From the IMG/VR virus record IMGVR_UViG_3300045286_000133, positions 1 to 26,206 of that record: a stretch of DNA of 26,206 nt; one strand, 5' to 3'. Position 1 is the stretch's first letter, and each line of letters opens with the position of its first letter. A model generated the notes under the pieces. The model had not been told where the DNA came from. It saw only the letters and a list, made by a program, of their open reading frames with translations, and ran no database searches. This document shows, one piece after another, positions 2,821 to 19,715 of the stretch. Both the position numbers and the translations under genes were made by a program. The DNA is from a virus.

Positions 2821-4310
2821 CAGCCGACGAGCCGGTAGACGACGTTCGCGTGGAAGTACAGGCTGTTGGCGCTCGCGTGCTTGGTCGCGACGACGCGGAT
2901 GTACCGGTAGGTCGTCCCGAGCAGCGCCCCCACGGCCTGGTCGTGGCGGGTCCAGTTGGCCGACGTGTCGCTCGCCGTCGTCGGGTTGCCGCCGATGTTC
3001 GCCTCGGACTCGGCCGCCGTGCCCTTGATCGCCTGGATGTCCCAGTAGTTCGAGCCCGACGGCGACGCGTGGTAGGTCTCGTACTCGAGCGTCTCGATCC
3101 AATAGTCCTGGGTCCCGTCCGAGCCCATCCAGCGGTACGGGACCGCGGTGGCGGAGAACGGAGAGCCTGATCCCTCACCCTGCATCGGCTCGCGGAATCT
3201 CTGCTCGCTGAGCCAGCGCGTCCCGTCATAGACGTACAGGATGTTTCGGTCCGTGCGGAAGCACAGCATTCCGGTCGTCGGCGAGCCCGGGAAGGAGGTC
3301 CCCGGGTGCAGGTCGGTGCCGCTGCCGCCGGCGGGCGGGTCGATCCAGTGGTCGTTGTAGTCCGTCGCGTCGATCTTCGCGAGGACCTGGCCGGTGGTGC
3401 CGCCCGCGGGCACGCCGACGCCGTTCGTCCCGTTGGTGCCGTTGGTCCCGTTGGTGCCGGCCTGGGCGAGCACTCCCCAGTAGGTCCCGTTCGGGGGCTC
3501 GTGGTTCGTGTGCGCGAGGGTGCAGACGTACGACGAGCCCGAGTCGGAGACGGCATCGCCCTCGGCGTAGGCCGTGGACGAGTCCCAGGCGCCGCGCCAG
3601 ACCGAGGGCGCCTCGCCCGCGATGTTGATGTCCCAGTCAGCGTGCGTCCCGGAGCCGCCAGTCAGGTCGACGGTGACGGTCAGCGTGGCGCCGGAGTACG
3701 AGGCGACGACGCCCTCCATGAAGTCGGCGACGCCGGCCGCGGAGCTCGCGCGGACCCGGGCGCCGGCGCTGTAGGCGAGGCCCGCCTGGGTCGTGAACGC
3801 CTTCGAGCCCGTCCCGACCGCGAGCGACGTCGTGCTCGTGGCGCGGTATCCGTTGGCGGCCAGCGGGTTGAACGTGAACCGCTTGTCGACGATCTGGTCC
3901 GTCGCGACGACGGTCGCGCCCGGCGGCACCGTGACGAAGGCCAGCGCGACGTGGCCCGTCGGGAGGTCCGGCGGCTTGACGGCGGACAGCGCCGCGGCGG
4001 TGCCGGCCGTGTACGTCTTGACGCCGGCGTCCGACACGGAGACGAGGTCGATCCGCATCAGCGCGCCGTCCGCCGCGTCGACCGAGAGGTTCCCGGCCGA
4101 GACCGAGACGAGGTCGGCCGTCCCGGCGAACAGGCCGCCCGCCGCGACGTGGACCGTCATGTCCGGCGACCCCTGGGCCGTCACCTCGAGGCCGGTGTCC
4201 ACGCGGTAGCCGTCGAAGCCGCGCCGCAGGACCTCGAGGTCGCTGTTGTAGACGTGCGCCTGGACCGGGAAGGCGGCCTCGTCCTGGTCCGGGATCGTCC
4301 AGCCGGCCAT
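2820..4310 (-). CDS. Tail fibre with carbohydrate-binding module and collagen-like linker
   Basis: The product has 496 residues, with an ATG start overlapping the upstream stop by one base (TGATG). Residues 1-150 are a beta-rich N-terminal part that probably attaches to the tail; it contains VDKRFTFNPL. Residues about 237-285 match the CBM5/12 chitin-binding pattern (VWRGAWDSSTAYAEGDAV, then SSYVCTLAHTNHEPPNGTYW). Residues 285-297 are a short G-T-N triplet repeat like the collagen-like linkers of phage fibres. The following PAGGTTGQVLAKIDATDYN is a common fibre linker motif. The last 120 residues, rich in W and Y, are the likely receptor-binding tip. The repeat is also visible in the DNA as tandem ccgttggtg-type units near 3420-3460. 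The target is likely a host surface polysaccharide, which is inference. Confidence 0.85.
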   Translation of the reverse strand: MAGWTIPDQDEAAFPVQAHVYNSDLEVLRRGFDGYRVDTGLEVTAQGSPDMTVHVAAGGLFAGTADLVSVSAGNLSVDAADGALMRIDLVSVSDAGVKTYTAGTAAALSAVKPPDLPTGHVALAFVTVPPGATVVATDQIVDKRFTFNPLAANGYRATSTTSLAVGTGSKAFTTQAGLAYSAGARVRASSAAGVADFMEGVVASYSGATLTVTVDLTGGSGTHADWDINIAGEAPSVWRGAWDSSTAYAEGDAVSDSGSSYVCTLAHTNHEPPNGTYWGVLAQAGTNGTNGTNGTNGVGVPAGGTTGQVLAKIDATDYNDHWIDPPAGGSGTDLHPGTSFPGSPTTGMLCFRTDRNILYVYDGTRWLSEQRFREPMQGEGSGSPFSATAVPYRWMGSDGTQDYWIETLEYETYHASPSGSNYWDIQAIKGTAAESEANIGGNPTTASDTSANWTRHDQAVGALLGTTYRYIRVVATKHASANSLYFHANVVYRLVG

Positions 4311-5435: not shown

Positions 5436-8035
5436 CCCTGCACCGCCGCGAGGAAGCGCAGCTGCTGGACGAGGCTGAACTCGTCATGCGCGTCGGCGAT
5501 CGAGACGCTCTCGATCGTGATCTGCTGGTTCCGGGCGGCCGCCGCGGGGACGGGCACGGAGGACGAGGCGACCGCGGACGCGGCGGAGGCGACGTGGGAG
5601 ATCGCGGACTCCATGCCCGAGGCGAAGAGCTCCACCAGGCGGGCGCCGTAGTCGGACGGCCCGCGCCCCTCGGAGAGCGGCCCCTCCTTCGCCGGGCTGC
5701 GGACGCGCAGGTAGTTGCGGACCTTGCCGGCGATGACGATCAGCGACGAGTCGAGCGCCCCCGTCGCCCCCGGGCTCTCGATCCCCGTCGCGAGGGCCTT
5801 CGTGATCGCGGCCCCGTAGCCGGTCGCGTCGTCCCGGAGCTTCGCGAGCTGGTCCTCGGTCGCCTGCTTGACGTCGGCCCAGTGCTGCTGCACGTCCGGG
5901 TCGGCCGACTTGAGGCCCAGGACGAGGTCGTGCGAGGTCAGGAGCGCCTGCGTCTTCGCGATCTGCTGCTGGCGCGTCCCGGTCGCCGCCTGCTCGAGCA
6001 GCATCTCCTTGTTCGAGTCGCGGAGGTCTCGGATCCGGATCCGCGCCTCGGCCTTCTGCGCGTCCGTAGCCTTACGGTCGGCGAGGATCTTCTTCTGCGC
6101 GACGATGTCGGCGTTGTTGATGATGATCTGGTCGGCCGCGTTCTCCGCGCTCTGGGCCGCCGCCCGGGCCGTCGACCAGGCGCTCGAGAGCGACGCCTTC
6201 CCGGCGATGATCGCCTGGCGCTCCGCCGCGATCGCCGCGACGGCCCCGGCGACGGCCTGCTCCCGGGCGACCGTGCCGCCGTGGAAGAACGCCTTCCGGT
6301 TGGAGTCGGCGACGGCAGCGCTCAGGGCCGAGGAGGCGGAGGAGACCGCGGACGCGGCCCCCGCCATCGCGGACGCCGCGCCGTCGTCGAGGAGCTTCCC
6401 GGCCCGCTGGGACGTCTCGGCGGCCGCCGCCTGCATCCGCGCGAGGGCATCGTTGAGGGCCGCGACGCCCTGGGACGCCGTCGCGTACTCCTGCGGGCTG
6501 GGGCCCCCGAGCCATGACCCGGGGTTGGTGATCGACGGCAGCTGCGCCATCCGCGCCTGGAGGCGGTCCCGCAGCTGGCGCATCTGGTCGGCCGAGCCGG
6601 AGGCGAGCGCCGCGGCGACGTCGTCGATGTTCGACTGGCGCCTGCCCGCCGCGTCGTTGGCCGCGAGGAGGACCTCGACCGGGATGACGATCTGCCCGAG
6701 CGCGACGGCGGCGGCGACCGCGGCGGCGGCCGCGGAGGCGAGGGCCGACCCGGCGGCGGTCCCGGAGGCGGCGGCCGCGGCGACGACCTCGGGCGTCTGC
6801 GAGGCGACGGCTGCGGCGACCTCCGGCCCGGACGCGGCGACGGCGGCCGCCTCGGCGGCGCCCTCGGCGGCGCCGGCGGCCGTCCCGCCCGCGATCCACG
6901 CCGGAAGGGTGAGCCCGAGCTCCGCGGCGATCCTGGGCAGGAGCAGGCCCGCGAGCCCGCCGAGCCCGGCGAGGATGCCCTTCGTCAGCCCGGGGCCGAT
7001 CAGGGCGGTGACGACCAGCAGGTCGCCCATGTTGGTGCCGATGTCCGCGAGGCCGGCCTGGAACTTGTGCAGCATCAGGAGCGCCTGGCCGCCGAAGGTG
7101 CTGTCGTTGACCTTCGCGGCCTGCTCGACGGCTCCGGTGTAGTCGCTGCCGATGATGGCCGCCATGTCCTGCACCGACTGGGCGCCGGGGCGGAGCATGT
7201 TCGCGAGCGCGGAGCCGGCCCGCTGGCCGAAGAGGTCCGAGGCCTTCTTCGCCCGCTCGAGGTCGTCCGTCGTGTTCGCGATGTCCGCGACCAGCCGGCG
7301 GAACTCCTCGGGGCTCTTGACCTGCTTGATCGCGGTGTTGAAGCCCATCGTCACCCGCTGGGCGTCCACGCCGGCCTTGTTGAAGAGGCTCATCCACGCG
7401 ATCGCCTCGTCGCCGGTCATGTTGAGCGCGTTCATCGCGGGCGCGAACTTGACCAGGGCGTCGAGGGTGTCGTTGATGTTGATGCCCCACTTCTGGTGGG
7501 CGAGGGTGAGCTTGTCCATCGTGGCCGCCATCTGGTCCTGGCCGATGACGCCCGTCTTGACCAGGCTGTTCAGCCGCTCGACCGCGTCGGCGCCCGACCC
7601 GCCGGCGACCTCGGCGAAGTCGAGCACGTTCGAGGCCAGCGCCTTCGCGGCCTCGGCGTCGAGGTTGAAGTGCGTCTTGAGGCCGATCAGGACCTGCGCG
7701 ATCTCGTCGTACGACTGGTGGGCGTTCGCGAACAGGCCGTTCAGGACGGCCGAGAACGCCTTCGCCTCCTGGGCGTTCGCCCCGGTCTGGACCTGGTACT
7801 CGCCCGCGAGCTCGTTGAGCTTCGTCGCGCCCGAGATCGCCTCCCCGAGCGACAGGCCCGCGAGCGCCCCGGCCGCGCCGCGGGCCGCCTTCTGGATCGA
7901 GGCGTTGATGTTCGCCGACATGCGGTCGCCGACGTTCTTGCCCGACCTGTCGGCGAGCGCGAGCGCCTGGGCGTCGAAGCCCGTCCCGTCGAGCTGGAGC
8001 CGGACGGCGGCGAAGATGTCGGCGAGCGCGGTCAC
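5432..8035 (-). CDS. Tape measure protein
   Basis: The product has 867 residues from a GTG start, one base beyond the stop of the frameshifted chaperone. It sets tail length and passes into the host envelope at infection. Residues 1-335 are helical, with the MTP-like pattern of tail tape measures (e.g. EAIAWMSLFNKAGVDAQRV around 210-228). Residues about 338-465 form a long hydrophobic, Ala/Gly-rich stretch with several potential membrane helices. Residues about 500-700 are Ala-rich and helical. The C-terminal part holds the typical YLRVRSPAKEGPLSEG segment followed by GARLVELFASGM. No lysozyme, transglycosylase or peptidase domain is apparent. The length would correspond to a tail of roughly 130 nm if the usual 0.15 nm per residue rule applies. 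Confidence 0.95.
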   Translation of the reverse strand: MTALADIFAAVRLQLDGTGFDAQALALADRSGKNVGDRMSANINASIQKAARGAAGALAGLSLGEAISGATKLNELAGEYQVQTGANAQEAKAFSAVLNGLFANAHQSYDEIAQVLIGLKTHFNLDAEAAKALASNVLDFAEVAGGSGADAVERLNSLVKTGVIGQDQMAATMDKLTLAHQKWGININDTLDALVKFAPAMNALNMTGDEAIAWMSLFNKAGVDAQRVTMGFNTAIKQVKSPEEFRRLVADIANTTDDLERAKKASDLFGQRAGSALANMLRPGAQSVQDMAAIIGSDYTGAVEQAAKVNDSTFGGQALLMLHKFQAGLADIGTNMGDLLVVTALIGPGLTKGILAGLGGLAGLLLPRIAAELGLTLPAWIAGGTAAGAAEGAAEAAAVAASGPEVAAAVASQTPEVVAAAAASGTAAGSALASAAAAAVAAAVALGQIVIPVEVLLAANDAAGRRQSNIDDVAAALASGSADQMRQLRDRLQARMAQLPSITNPGSWLGGPSPQEYATASQGVAALNDALARMQAAAAETSQRAGKLLDDGAASAMAGAASAVSSASSALSAAVADSNRKAFFHGGTVAREQAVAGAVAAIAAERQAIIAGKASLSSAWSTARAAAQSAENAADQIIINNADIVAQKKILADRKATDAQKAEARIRIRDLRDSNKEMLLEQAATGTRQQQIAKTQALLTSHDLVLGLKSADPDVQQHWADVKQATEDQLAKLRDDATGYGAAITKALATGIESPGATGALDSSLIVIAGKVRNYLRVRSPAKEGPLSEGRGPSDYGARLVELFASGMESAISHVASAASAVASSSVPVPAAAARNQQITIESVSIADAHDEFSLVQQLRFLAAVQG

Positions 8036-14662: not shown

Positions 14663-16471
14663 CTAGATGGCGGCACCCTGACGTTCTGCGTCCGCGGCGG
14701 TGACATTTCCGCGGTGGCGGTCGTTGAAGGCGGACATCGAGGCGGCCGTGGGCGCCTCTGACTCGTCCCGCCCGCCGGAGAGCAGCCGGCGGACGTGGCG
14801 CGGGTTGCGGTCGACCCGGGCGGCGATGTCGGGCACGGACATGCCCTCGGCGTGGAGGCGCAGCGCGAGCTCGCGGACCGAGAGGCCCGAGTAGTCCGGC
14901 AGGCGCTCGAAGCACGAGGGGTAGGTCGAGACGAACGGAGAGCCCGCGTCGAGGACGGTCCCCGCGGTGACCGGACCGAGCGACGCGAGCGTCCCCTCGG
15001 ACGCCCAGAAGTCGCGCGTCGCCCGGAAGCGGCCGGTCGGCGCCGGCGGCAGCGCCGAGACCGAGGTCGCCGGGATCGTCCCCCGGTCCGCGGAGGTGAC
15101 CATCCACGCGGCCGGCCCGGAGGGCTGCGCAGCGGCGCCGCCGCCCGGGAGCGCAGCGCCGGGCGGCTGCAGCTGGACCGACACGAGCCCCGTGTGGACG
15201 AGCAGGCTCTCGTCGCCGGCGATGGCGGCGGCGATCGCCGACGCCGGGGTGAAGCCGTCGCGGATGTAGCCGCCGATGGTCTGCTGGCGGATCTGGAGGA
15301 TCTTCGCCTGGTCGGTGACGTCCTCGCGCAGGAAGGCGACCTCGCGGTCGTCCGTCCAGAGGCGCGTGCCGGGCAGCGGCGGCACGATCCGCTCGAGCGC
15401 GCCGCAGGCCGACTTCCAGAGCGGCCGGAGCGTCGCGTCGCCGACGAGCCGCGCGGCCGCGGAGAAGTTGCCGACGTTGAGGCTCGACCCCTGGAGGCCC
15501 TCGGACAGCGCGGCAACGATCGGGTTGACGCCGGCGAGCGCGGCGATCCTGGTCTCGGCCTTCGCCTGGAGCTCGGTGAACTGGCTCGCCTGGAACGAGA
15601 GGCCGACCGGGGTGGTGGTCACGCCCGCGCCCAGGAAGATCGTCCGGAACGCGTTCATCGCGCCCCGGTGCTCCTGGTCGAAGAGCTCGATCCACTCCTT
15701 CGCCTTCTCCTTGGACATCGCGGCGGGGAAGGACAGCGCCAGGTTGGGCGTCGCGGCGTTGCGGAAGAAGCTGAGCTTGTAGTCGGTCGCGGCGCTGTCC
15801 CCGAGGACCTCGCGCAGACCCGCCGTGAGGAGCGAGACGCCGCGGTTCCGCGCGAGCGGGTCCTTGGTCGGCGTGTAGATCGCGACCTCGTCTGGCAGGT
15901 ACAGCCGCGGCGACGGGGCGATTCCCATGCCGCCCGGGTAGTGGCCGACGCCGATCACCCGCGCGGCCGGGTCCCACGCGCCGAGCTCGGTGTCGCGCTT
16001 CGGCGAGCCGTAGGCGATGTAGGTCCAGTCGGGCCGGAGGCGTTCCAGCTCGGGCCCCGCCGAGTGCACGAAGCCGTTGCCGCCGAGGGACGCGTCGAGC
16101 TCCATCTCGGCGAGCAGGTCGCCGGTGGTCCGGCCCGGCTCGGGGTTCTCGAGCGGGCGCAGCGCCTGGGTGCCGAACAGGGACCCAGGCCTCCCGCCGC
16201 GCAGCTGCTGGAACTGGAACCGGGCCTCGGCGAACAGGCGGGCGCGGATCGCGAGCACCGAGAAGACGACGCTGTTGCGCAGGTACGCCTGGAGCGTGAG
16301 GCCCATGAGCGACGGGTCGACGGGCTCGATCGGCTGGCCGCTCAGGGTCTGGAACTGGCTTAGCATCCCGGCGATCCCGAAGAGGCCGGTGTAGTCGTCC
16401 CAGCTGTTGATGTCCCAGCCCTCGGCGCGGCCGTCGGGCAGGGAGGCGATCGACTGGATCAGCGCGGCCAT
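14663..16471 (-). CDS. Portal protein with C-terminal helix-turn-helix extension
   Basis: The product has 602 residues from an ATG at 16471. Residues about 25-435 are an HK97-type portal: NSVVFSVLAIRARLFAEARF (67-86), YLPDEVAIYTPTKDPLARNRG (about 191-211, before GVSLLTAGLREVL), AMSKEKAKEWIELFDQEHRG (251-270) and the stem/crown helices ending near QLQPPG (433-438). It forms the dodecameric ring for DNA entry and tail joining. HK97-type portals usually end near here. This one continues for about 165 residues with a linker, a beta-rich stretch (FWASEGTLASLG) and a helix-turn-helix-like segment (SVRELALRLHAEGMSVPDIA, then ARVDRNPRHVRRLLSGG; 531-567). It ends with the AFN-x-R-x-R motif (581-586). 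The first eight codons lie inside the 89-bp direct repeat. Confidence 0.93.
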   Translation of the reverse strand: MAALIQSIASLPDGRAEGWDINSWDDYTGLFGIAGMLSQFQTLSGQPIEPVDPSLMGLTLQAYLRNSVVFSVLAIRARLFAEARFQFQQLRGGRPGSLFGTQALRPLENPEPGRTTGDLLAEMELDASLGGNGFVHSAGPELERLRPDWTYIAYGSPKRDTELGAWDPAARVIGVGHYPGGMGIAPSPRLYLPDEVAIYTPTKDPLARNRGVSLLTAGLREVLGDSAATDYKLSFFRNAATPNLALSFPAAMSKEKAKEWIELFDQEHRGAMNAFRTIFLGAGVTTTPVGLSFQASQFTELQAKAETRIAALAGVNPIVAALSEGLQGSSLNVGNFSAAARLVGDATLRPLWKSACGALERIVPPLPGTRLWTDDREVAFLREDVTDQAKILQIRQQTIGGYIRDGFTPASAIAAAIAGDESLLVHTGLVSVQLQPPGAALPGGGAAAQPSGPAAWMVTSADRGTIPATSVSALPPAPTGRFRATRDFWASEGTLASLGPVTAGTVLDAGSPFVSTYPSCFERLPDYSGLSVRELALRLHAEGMSVPDIAARVDRNPRHVRRLLSGGRDESEAPTAASMSAFNDRHRGNVTAADAERQGAAI

Positions 16472-16535
16472 CGGAGACTCCCGGCTTTCGAGGGGTCGAA
16501 GGTGACGGACCCGAGGAGGGCGAGGCCCGCGGCGA
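16447..16535. repeat. 89-bp direct repeat, left copy
   Basis: This stretch is identical, base for base, to 19506-19594 (offset 3059). It carries the 3' part of a small membrane-protein gene, the portal ribosome-site region and the first eight portal codons. Identity ends abruptly on both sides, with mismatches at 16446/19505 and 16536/19595. Confidence 0.97.
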
Positions 16536-16578
16536 AGGCGAGCTGGACGCCGGTGAGGATTGCGAGCGACTCGATCAT
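16459..16578 (-). CDS. Small membrane protein B, upstream of the portal
   Basis: The product has 39 residues from an ATG at 16578 and overlaps the portal start by 13 bases. It has one hydrophobic segment (AILTGVQLAFAAGLALLGSV) and ends in a basic tail (SLRWPR). Its last 24 residues are identical to those of the 65-residue protein encoded at 19518-19715, because the shared DNA lies in the 89-bp direct repeat. The N-terminal parts are unrelated. No strong ribosome site is visible. The conserved short C-terminus may have been kept because its codons overlap the portal translation start. Function unknown. Confidence 0.55.
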   Translation of the reverse strand: MIESLAILTGVQLAFAAGLALLGSVTFDPSKAGSLRWPR

Positions 16579-16583
16579 CGAAT

Positions 16584-18311
16584 TCACCAGGCGGCCGGAA
16601 TGATGACGGCCTGAGCCGCGGTCGCCCGGATGCCGGCGCTCCGCGGAGCGGCCCGGCCTCCGCCGGTCGTGGCGAGGCTCGCCGAGCGGGCCGACGAGGC
16701 GGACGTCGACGCGCTGGTCGAGGCGGACGAGGCGACGTTCTGGTACCGGGCGCTCGCGAGGCCGAGCGTCGCCGCCCCGTGCCCAGCCGACGCGACGGTC
16801 CCGGAGTGGGTCTCCGCCACGGTCTCGGAGATAAGCGCCGATCCCGACCCGGAGCTCCGCAACGACGAGGCTCGGCCGCTCCGCGTCGCGACGGAGGCCG
16901 GCCCGGACCCCGACAGCGCGGCGGCGAGCTCCCGGGCCGACCGGACCGAGGCCGAGGCCGAGCCCGATCCGGAGACCGGAGCGGAGATCGACCGGGCCGA
17001 CCCGGCCGTCTCGACGAGGACGCCGCCCGAGGCGGACGCCGGGGAGGTCCTCCGCGCGGTCGACGACGCGACCGCGGTCGACCCGGCGGCCGTCGCTGGC
17101 TCGATGGCCGCCCGGGCGGAGCTCGCGGCTATCGAGGCGGACCCCGCGCCGGCGCTAGCCGGCGAGGCGTCGAAGTTGACGCTCGTTTCCGCGGCGACGG
17201 CGTCGACCGAAGACATCCCGTGGCCCGCCGCCGCGACCGAGGCCGATCGGGAGCTCGAGGCGTACGCCGCGGCCGACCCGCTGGCGGTCTCCGCCGGCGA
17301 CGAGAACGCCTCCCGGGCGGCCGCGGTCGACTCCGAGCCCGCTCCCGTCGCCGCCGCGGCGGCGGGCCGCGAGCTCGAGCGGCCAGGTGACGCGGACCCG
17401 GATCCCGCGGCCGCGACCGAGGACGTCGCTGAGCGGGACCAGCCGGGCGTCAGAGACCCGTGCGAGATCGCGGACGCGGACCCGGTCCCCTGGTGGGTCG
17501 CGGAGCCTGTAGCCATGCCGTGCCCGCTCGCCGCGTACGCCCCGATCCCGGCGTGGACGGCGTTGGCCGACTCCGACCCGTGGCCCGTCGCCGCGACGCT
17601 CGCCGAGCCCGTGTGCTGCTCGTGCAGCTGGACCCAGGAGAGGATGCAGTCCTGGCTGGACGACGTCGTCGGGTTGAACGTCTGGCCCGACGCGCCCGTC
17701 GCCTGCAGTTTCGTCTGGGTCGAGTGTCGGATGCCCGAGGTCGTCGACCCGGCCGTCACCGTGACCTGTGCCGTCCAGCTGCCGTTGGTTGTGTCGGAGT
17801 CCTGCGTCGTGGCCCCGGTATTCTCCGAGTGGTACGCGCCGACGACCAGGTCGCCGATGGGGATGCTCGAGGTCGTCACCGTCGGGGCCGCCGTCGTCGC
17901 TCCGGTGTTGACGCCTCCCGTGACGTAAGCGACCTCGGCGGCGGCAGCGTGGGTGACCTCGTAGAGGCTCCACCCCTTGACCGCGGCGGCGACGCCCGAC
18001 GAGATCGGGATCGTCGTCGCGGTCGTCGGCGCGGCCGCGGTGCACGGGCTGGTGTAGATCGCGCCCTGGATGCCGGCGGAAGCGGCCCCGTTGTCGAAGA
18101 TCGGGGCCGTCCGCCTCGTCCAGACGTTGCCGACCGAGTCGGTCATCGAGGAGGCGAGGTCGTTGGTCGCCCCGCCGCTCGAGTTGTTGTCGGCCGTGAC
18201 GCAGAGCACCCCGAACGACCCCGCGGCGAAGTTGCCGGACGGGGTCGCGTTCAGGGGGTTCTCGGACGCGGACCCGGTTCCGGATCCGCGCCCGACGGCC
18301 GCGAGCGCCAT
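16584..18311 (-). CDS. Fibre-like protein with beta domain and Ala/Ser/Gly repeats
   Basis: The product has 575 residues. The ATG at 18311 directly follows the TAG of the upstream gene. Residues 1-232 form a beta-rich domain (FAAGSFGVLCVTADNNSSGG, SMTDSVGNVWTRRTAPIF, DCILSWVQLHEQ) like lectin or jelly-roll domains on phage and bacterial surface proteins. Residues 233-560 are an imperfect repeat of roughly 16-24 residues built on a G-[SH]-G-[SM]-[AE]-S core with spacers such as ARSARELAAAL. It could form an elongated beta fibre or act as a flexible spacer. There is no signal peptide or anchor, consistent with a virion protein. The closest analogy is a head or tail fibre; the exact place in the particle is unknown. 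Confidence 0.7.
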   Translation of the reverse strand: MALAAVGRGSGTGSASENPLNATPSGNFAAGSFGVLCVTADNNSSGGATNDLASSMTDSVGNVWTRRTAPIFDNGAASAGIQGAIYTSPCTAAAPTTATTIPISSGVAAAVKGWSLYEVTHAAAAEVAYVTGGVNTGATTAAPTVTTSSIPIGDLVVGAYHSENTGATTQDSDTTNGSWTAQVTVTAGSTTSGIRHSTQTKLQATGASGQTFNPTTSSSQDCILSWVQLHEQHTGSASVAATGHGSESANAVHAGIGAYAASGHGMATGSATHQGTGSASAISHGSLTPGWSRSATSSVAAAGSGSASPGRSSSRPAAAAATGAGSESTAAAREAFSSPAETASGSAAAYASSSRSASVAAAGHGMSSVDAVAAETSVNFDASPASAGAGSASIAASSARAAIEPATAAGSTAVASSTARRTSPASASGGVLVETAGSARSISAPVSGSGSASASVRSARELAAALSGSGPASVATRSGRASSLRSSGSGSALISETVAETHSGTVASAGHGAATLGLASARYQNVASSASTSASTSASSARSASLATTGGGRAAPRSAGIRATAAQAVIIPAAW

Positions 18312-18683
18312 CTACGGCGCGTTGAGGTCGAGGGTCGTGGTCGTACCCTTGATGGTGTAGGTCCCCTGGGCCCCGAAGACCTCGTTGGTGACGGCCTTCT
18401 TGAGGTAGCGGACCGTCCCGGCGGTGTTCCAGAGCGAGACGTACGCGATGGTCGTCCCGGCCGGTACGTCGAGCACGACGTCGCCGTTCTGGGTGGCCGC
18501 CCCGCCAGAGGCCGCGTTCCAGGCGACCGCCTTGCGGGCGTACGCCGGGCTGCCGCCGGTCACCTCGTTCGACGCCGAGTTGGCGCCGCCGGGGTCGGCG
18601 GTGTGGAGCGCCCACCGGGTGCCGAGCGCGGCGATCGCGTCGACCCCGACGTTGCGGGCGGTGGTGTCGTAGTCGTTGGCCAT
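18312..18683 (-). CDS. Fibre-associated structural protein
   Basis: The product has 123 residues from an ATG at 18683 with AAAGGGAAAG upstream. The sequence runs ALGTRWALHTADPGGANSAS, NEVTGGSPAYARKAV, GDVVLDVPAGTTIAYVSLWN and VRYLKKAV. The H-T-A-D-P-G...N-E-V-x-G-G-x-x-Y-x-R...V-P-A-G-T-T-x-x-x-x-x-x-W pattern is a familiar small phage protein found next to fibre genes and often annotated as a tail fibre component. It is probably a trimeric or capping beta-sandwich. It is co-transcribed with the 575-residue fibre-like protein that follows directly. Confidence 0.75.
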   Translation of the reverse strand: MANDYDTTARNVGVDAIAALGTRWALHTADPGGANSASNEVTGGSPAYARKAVAWNAASGGAATQNGDVVLDVPAGTTIAYVSLWNTAGTVRYLKKAVTNEVFGAQGTYTIKGTTTTLDLNAP

Positions 18684-18698
18684 CGCTTTCCCTTTCGC

Positions 18699-19382
18699 CT
18701 ATAAGTCGACCGAGAGGACCAGGGTGACGCGCTCGAGTGTTCCCGCCCCGAGCGCGGCCAGGATGACGTCGCCCTCGCCGAGCGCGGTCGACCAGCCGGC
18801 GAGCTCGCGGTCGTCGTACGACGAGGACGAGGACAGCGCCGGCGGCGACCCCCCGGTGATCGGGACAGCCGAGCCTCCGGCCGCGTCCCGGCGGGAGATC
18901 GAGATTTCGGCGTCGCCGTCCTCGGAGGCGACCAGGCGGACGCGCGAGATCGACCCCGGGAAGGGCACGACGACCGGGACTGGGGTCGGGTCGAGGACGA
19001 TCTCGATCGTCGTGCTCCGGCTCGCGATCTCCGATCCCGCCGGATGCGCCGCGGGAGCCGTCCCGTCGACCCCCCGGCGGACGTCGATGGTCGTCCCGCC
19101 GACCCTCGCGACCCGGAGGAGCTCCGACCCGATCCGGACGACCTGTCCGACCCGGAAGGCGGCCGTCGGCCAGTCGCGGTCCGCGGCGTCGAGCGCGGCC
19201 CGGGCCTCGTCGACCCTGGCCGCGAGTTCGTTGATCGCCTCTCCGTGCCGGTACCCGCGCGCCGCCTCGAGCGCGTCCTGGGCGGCCGCGAGGCCCGCGG
19301 CGAGCGCGGCGACCTCCTCCGAAGACCAGGCGTGTCGGAGGCTCGAGCTCGAGTTGTCGAGGTCGACGGCGAGTGCGATCAT
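18699..19382 (-). CDS. Virion protein with coiled coil and attachment-type beta domains
   Basis: The product has 227 residues from an ATG at 19382 with a GGGAGGA ribosome site. Residues about 22-70 form a charged Ala-rich helix with coiled-coil potential. Residues 76-120 carry the pattern FRVGQVVRIGSELLRVARVG, DVRRGVDGTAPAAHPAGSEI, which is widespread in phage fibres and tail-tube inserts. Residues 145-227 form a jelly-roll-like end (SRVRLVASEDGDAEISISRR, GWSTALGEGDVILAALGAGT) seen in virion-attachment domains. The aspect is of a fibre base or adaptor, but the gene lies in the packaging region rather than with the tail genes. Confidence 0.7.
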   Translation of the reverse strand: MIALAVDLDNSSSSLRHAWSSEEVAALAAGLAAAQDALEAARGYRHGEAINELAARVDEARAALDAADRDWPTAAFRVGQVVRIGSELLRVARVGGTTIDVRRGVDGTAPAAHPAGSEIASRSTTIEIVLDPTPVPVVVPFPGSISRVRLVASEDGDAEISISRRDAAGGSAVPITGGSPPALSSSSSYDDRELAGWSTALGEGDVILAALGAGTLERVTLVLSVDL

Positions 19383-19398
19383 CCCCGGTCCTCCCGCG

Positions 19399-19530
19399 TC
19401 ATACGGATCCCGACTCCGAGGCGGCGAACCGGTCCTCGTCCTCGCCGCCGGCGTGCAGGTCCTCCCGCGCGGACAGCGCGAAGCCGAGCCCGCCCGAGTA
19501 GTGCCCGATCGACTGGATCAGCGCGGCCAT
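19399..19530 (-). CDS. Short ORF that begins like the portal gene
   Basis: This encodes 43 residues from an ATG at 19530. The first eight residues (MAALIQSI) are identical to those of the portal protein because they are encoded in the right copy of the 89-bp repeat. The rest (GHYSGGLGFALSAREDLHAG, then an acidic stretch and ESGSV) does not match the portal. The repeat also supplies its translation start region, so it is probably translated. It may be a by-product of cassette insertion rather than a functional gene. Confidence 0.45.
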   Translation of the reverse strand: MAALIQSIGHYSGGLGFALSAREDLHAGGEDEDRFAASESGSV

Positions 19531-19594
19531 CGGAGACTCCCGGCTTTCGAGGGGTCGAAGGTGACGGACCCGAGGAGGGCGAGGCCCGCGGCGA
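19506..19594. repeat. 89-bp direct repeat, right copy
   Basis: This stretch is identical to 16447-16535. It covers the last 77 bases of the 65-residue membrane-protein gene, including its stop, together with the start of the 43-residue ORF. Together with the left copy it brackets the accessory cassette. Confidence 0.97.
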
Positions 19595-19715
19595 CCAGGC
19601 CGGCCGGCGGGAACCACAGCAGGGCGCCCAGGACGACGAGGCCGATTCCGGCAGTGATCGCGGCGATGGCGACCAGCCGAGGCTGCGGCTCGGGGATGCG
19701 CGGGACGCGGCTCAC
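19518..19715 (-). CDS. Small membrane protein A, after large terminase
   Basis: The product has 65 residues from a GTG in a GTGA overlap with the terminase stop. Two hydrophobic segments are present (about 14-35, LVAIAAITAGIGLVVLGALL, and 37-54), followed by a basic tail ending SLRWPR. The last 24 residues are identical to those of membrane protein B at 16459-16578. The stop lies 13 bases inside the next reading frame, the same arrangement as at the portal. Its coupling to terminase is strong, its function is unknown, and the class (a small two-helix protein between TerL and portal) has no name I recognise. Confidence 0.7.
   Translation of the reverse strand: MSRVPRIPEPQPRLVAIAAITAGIGLVVLGALLWFPPAGLVAAGLALLGSVTFDPSKAGSLRWPR

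Follow-up and report, generated by a model that had tools for sequence, protein, structure and literature searches.

The 26.2-kb stretch of DNA analysed here (hereafter the window), a metagenomic virus record with its virion genes on the minus strand, carries three genes (gp227, gp123 and gp575) framed by a perfect 89-nt direct repeat between the genes for the large terminase subunit (TerL) and the portal. These genes probably represent a fibre module that was acquired through illegitimate recombination where a small membrane-protein gene and the portal gene overlap, the accompanying 89-nt duplication of recipient sequence having been kept by selection.

The repeat and the genes that it frames

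Genes on the minus strand of the window follow the order TerS, TerL, memA, gp227, gp123, gp575, memB, portal, protease, major capsid protein and tail genes (Table 1), and the genes of 227, 123 and 575 codons lie where an earlier note on this DNA had placed them. The two copies of the repeat are in direct orientation with a spacing of 3059 nt and agree at 89 of 89 positions, and their ends are sharp, all as first described; identity drops to 10-40% within the 10-20 nt that border them on either side. The longest exact direct repeat obtained in 60 runs of a first-order Markov simulation of the window was 19 nt (mean 16), so that the 89-nt repeat is far above what chance would produce.

Each copy consists of the 3′ end of a small membrane-protein gene (the last 24 codons, AGLALLGSVTFDPSKAGSLRWPR with the stop) and the first 8 codons of the portal gene (MAALIQSI). 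The stop of the membrane gene lies inside the first portal codons, and membrane gene and portal gene therefore overlap. The end of memA lies in the TerL-side copy, which also opens a false portal start running into a 43-aa ORF, while the portal-side copy ends memB and supplies the true portal start. In memB (16578-16459), a new start of 15 codons, MIESLAILTGVQLAF, leads in frame into the second membrane-gene end; this fusion could mean that memB is functional, and is treated in our main account as incidental. When 3,059 nt between the two copies are removed in silico, both genes stay in frame and encode a membrane protein of 65 aa and a portal protein of 602 aa, in agreement with the earlier note.

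As the DNA comes from a metagenomic virus contig, an assembly artefact by which two phages were joined or the 89 nt duplicated may be envisaged. We consider this very unlikely: a k-mer assembler needs both junctions between repeat and module to exist in real molecules, so that only their order (linear or excised circle) would be doubtful, the GC content and third-position GC content of the module are those of its neighbours, and both flanking genes are intact.

Table 1. Features of the TerL-portal region of the window.
Feature	Position	Strand	Basis
89-nt repeat, TerL-proximal copy: memA 3′ end and first 8 portal codons	19506..19594	-	exact match
89-nt repeat, portal-proximal copy: memB 3′ end and true portal start	16447..16535	-	exact match
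memA, intact 65-aa small membrane protein between TerL and portal	19518..19715	-	translation, homologues
43-aa ORF: duplicated portal start (MAALIQSI) fused to GHYSGGLGFALSAREDLHAGGEDEDRFAASESGSV	19399..19530	-	TerS-profile match
gp227: coiled-coil-like N-terminus and tail-fibre-type motif	18699..19382	-	homologues
gp123: neck-whisker-like protein	18312..18683	-	PF23140 Gp80; PHROG 240
gp575: long fibre/stalk-type partner of gp123	16584..18311	-	N-terminal domain and repeats
memB: 39-aa ORF, 15 foreign codons and duplicated memA 3′ end, in frame	16459..16578	-	
Portal, intact, 602 aa; start and upstream region from repeat	14663..16471	-	PF04860
Large terminase subunit (TerL), 604 aa	19712..21526	-	PF03354/PF20441

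The TerL-portal interval in related contigs

TerL, portal and other proteins of the window were profiled over loci fetched from IMG/VR, and the gap between TerL and portal was taken as the distance between matched domains in the 158 loci in which portal follows TerL. At 3,466 nt, the gap of the window is the third largest among them (median, 390 nt), which bears out the view that the three genes are out of place here. Other large gaps that were inspected hold mainly protease and capsid genes (L038, L050 and L076, with a secreted FN3-like protein in addition in L076) or are due to inserts in TerL-side genes (L078, L145, L150).

An uninterrupted TerL-portal region, as looked for in relatives, is indeed found. 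In 15 related contigs with portals 48-62% identical to that of the window, the membrane/portal boundary is present in a single copy and gp227, gp123 and gp575 are absent; the membrane gene of these contigs ends in ..FDP..WPR and a stop over the portal start, as it does in the window. Homologues of memA occupy the same place in L022, L023, L025, L089 and L113-L125, and in Gordonia phage Eyre TerL, a 53-aa gene and portal are found in direct succession. Because the boundary occurs once, without insert, in the 15 related contigs and in Eyre, we take the single-copy boundary as the ancestral state; the insert would therefore be an acquisition, and the repeat a piece of recipient sequence duplicated on entry. 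A mosaic boundary between TerL and portal had been suspected because their best relatives differ, and was dismissed, as L113, L114, L118 and L121 are similar to the window in both.

Repeats following TerL in four other loci (L016, L027, L054, L081) were considered as parallels and set aside as regulatory, that of L016 comprising promoter-like sequence and a gene start, and the others being intergenic. The L016 repeat is an imperfect direct repeat of about 90 nt located right after TerL and again 2.3 kb further on (4148-4240 and 6446-6538), and its gene start reads MGTTTRTDQEA. The portal protein of the window itself features a C-terminal helix-turn-helix domain at residues 533-565 (PF13384, above cut-off), with 3 of 5 portals of the clade matching PF13384 and all 5 aligning over the domain. 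Such a DNA-binding fold is unusual on an HK97-type portal.

The module proteins and their distribution

The three genes had been described as of fibre type, and in general they look so, but gp123 resembles neck-whisker proteins and not a tail fibre. It matches PF23140 (Gp80) above the curated cut-off (32.8 versus 27 bits) as well as PHROG 240, and in a profile comparison it matches chain K of PDB 9C39 (E 1e-5). The AlphaFold model of gp123 (pLDDT 88.8) superimposes on 9MT4, the connector of Bas63, and on chain K of 9C39, from the neck of Sf14, with TM scores of 0.72-0.78 and Foldseek E values of 4e-7 to 2e-6. According to the description in PMC11821841, 9C39 represents the neck of Shigella phage Sf14, with portal gp29 and whiskers gp30/gp31. 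The whisker genes of Sf14 are numbered directly after that of the portal, a position taken by related modules in L114, L117, L119 and L201. The protein shares the fold of the 9C39 and 9MT4 proteins, whereas its sequence identity to them is only 22-24%. From its fold, gp123 is predicted to be a neck-whisker-type protein, with a corresponding putative place in the virion. A role as capsid decoration protein was discarded, since the matched map is that of the Sf14 neck. The Gp80 of PF23140 is fiber I of podophage GP4. The only annotation given for PHROG 240 is head protein.

No solved structure is usefully similar to gp575 or to gp227. The 240-aa N-terminal domain of gp575 is 46% identical to one in L135, and its predicted model (pLDDT 36) is unusable; the remaining part of about 340 residues is made up of Gly/Ser/Ala-rich repeats that recur about every 20 residues. 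The gene gp227 encodes a motif common to tail proteins. In many phages, the partners of gp123 have in common Gly-rich repeats of about 20 residues and differ in their N-terminal domains (window 17280-17580 and its neighbours), as if heads had been swapped on a common stalk.

Relatives of gp123 were detected in about 30 other contigs, followed in most cases by a gp575-like gene. The pair is located at the gp_11362/gp176 boundary in L089, after the capsid gene (MCP) in L086-L088 and L195, between portal and protease in L201, after gp176 in L096, L099, L193 and L202, and upstream of TerL in L083, L094 and L203. This presence at many boundaries in otherwise unrelated phages supports the earlier description as an exchangeable surface module. 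The gp123 of the window is 89-91% identical in amino-acid sequence to the copies in L083, L085 and L089, against at most 29% for TerL, and only L089 among the three has homologous head genes (53-60%). Identity to the nearest copies at the DNA level is 80-82% at best, and these are therefore no recent donors; the exchange is old and the protein constrained. Searches of viral_contigs with gp575, gp227 and the window portal yielded no donor, and in the phage collection gp123 and gp575 had no match and gp227 short matches only. A small neck-whisker-like protein that is traded with a long repetitive partner among unrelated phages may serve as a marker for the evolution of virion surfaces.

Two sets of genes of other kinds were noted, named by eye from their sequences: asparagine synthase-like, epimerase-like and two glycosyltransferase-like genes between TerS and TerL in L201 (3007-6341), and methyltransferase-like and epimerase-like genes between the fibre module and the protease gene in L135 (10653-12244).

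The earlier note had regarded the repeated gene boundary as a docking site for such modules, i.e. a recurrent site of homologous exchange at which the module enters and leaves by crossover, perhaps switching within the population. A length of 89 nt is sufficient for recombination by phage or RecA functions, and excision would leave all genes intact. Nevertheless, no flanking direct repeat of at least 16 nt was found at 47 other gp123 loci, duplicate fetches of one contig included, with the single exception of a 20-nt match in L207 whose copies are 5.9 kb apart. It follows that the module does not include the 89-nt repeat. Moreover, a 27-nt part of the repeat has no other exact copy in viral_contigs, from which close kin may be missing, the boundary is present only once in the 15 related contigs, and the fibre modules of relatives use other boundaries, with a collagen-like fibre and a repeat protein after the portal in L114 and L117, respectively, and a two-part fibre module at the gp_11362/gp176 boundary in L118. 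These data speak against a docking site, which we regard as quite unlikely. The same low probability is given to a reversible switch, in which crossover between the two copies would allow a population to carry or shed a neck whisker while keeping its essential genes. The repeat is better read as the by-product of a one-off insertion, kept because the genes overlap.

Proposed mode of insertion

In the sequence of events that we favour, another phage would have supplied a 3-kb module comprising gp227, gp123 and gp575, probably for the making of a neck whisker, and illegitimate recombination would have placed it where the membrane-protein gene overlaps the portal gene. Two joints 89 nt apart on the recipient would have left 89 nt of recipient sequence on both sides of the module, which probably carried with it a scrap of a small-terminase gene on the left and a scrap of another gene on the right. 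Insertion without duplication would break one of the two genes, because they overlap and the start signals of the portal gene lie inside the membrane gene. The 89 nt duplicate everything needed to avoid this: the overlap, the stop of the upstream gene and the start signals of the downstream gene. Selection for an intact portal may then have retained an event that left the membrane gene with a complete end in the upstream copy and the portal gene with its start in the downstream copy. As the copies are identical, the duplication would be either young or maintained. Such an insertion would illustrate a way for a phage to take up new genes at a point where two essential genes overlap: the overlap is duplicated, and a datable scar is left behind.

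A hint at the previous address of the module comes from the 43-aa ORF. The peptide that follows the duplicated portal start, GHYSGGLGFALSAREDLHAGGEDEDRFAASESGSV and a stop, matches a motif found at the C-terminus of P27-type small terminases (LGFLPSAREGIHVPGADDDGDAFAAWAAGDG and a stop in L114). The match to the TerS profile amounts to 6 bits over about 25 residues, a score reached by 1 of 5000 shuffles before allowing for the 7 profiles tried, and the peptide ranks 3-4 among 10,386 other C-termini for a TerS match. This resemblance is suggestive of a scrap from the C-terminus of a small terminase, which would mean that the module was cut from a place adjoining TerS. An address of this kind is plausible because a collagen-like fibre gene lies between TerS and TerL in L005 (6690-8000), whose TerL is 67% identical to that of the window. 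The alternative assignment of the 43-aa ORF as a portal fragment was rejected as weaker than the TerS match.

The nature of this left border also bears on the possibility that the module was relocated within the genome from downstream of the portal, by a tandem duplication of the block of membrane-gene end, portal and module, after which the first portal and the second module were lost and the 89 nt stayed as a remnant. The geometry of the repeat would be the same. Furthermore, fibre modules occur downstream of the portal in L114, L117, L119 and L201, several relatives having them between portal and protease, and homologues of gp227 directly follow the portal in L114, L117 and L124. Relocation nevertheless requires three events, the sequence left of gp227 resembles the end of TerS and not that of the portal, and no remnant is apparent at the junction of portal and protease in the window, where the two genes are 33 nt apart. 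We thus judge it unlikely.

Two further candidates were ruled out. A transposon insertion would not account for the lack of inverted repeats at the borders of the insert and of any Pfam transposase match in gp227, gp123 and gp575, and an invertible fibre cassette or one moved by a site-specific recombinase is at odds with the direct, not inverted, orientation of the repeats and with a cassette that contains no recombinase gene.

Acquisition by illegitimate recombination recalls phage morons and other mosaic insertions in that genes are inserted between a pair that is contiguous in relatives; the module of the window differs by its long duplication of recipient sequence and has no promoter or terminator shown. 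A close precedent, for what appears to be the same kind of event, is provided by mycobacteriophage LRRHood, in which genes 43-46 lie on 1.35 kb of extra DNA between 29-bp direct repeats, and the repeat is single-copy in its relatives, Cali and other C1 phages (PMC3029335). The authors were unable to retrace how this DNA was gained, and prefer another phage as its source (PMC3029335). As in LRRHood, the insert of the window lies between direct repeats of recipient sequence that is single in relatives without the insert. In contrast, the repeat of the window is 89 nt long and spans two overlapping virion genes, and its cargo is not a repressor, as in LRRHood, but a virion module also found at other sites.
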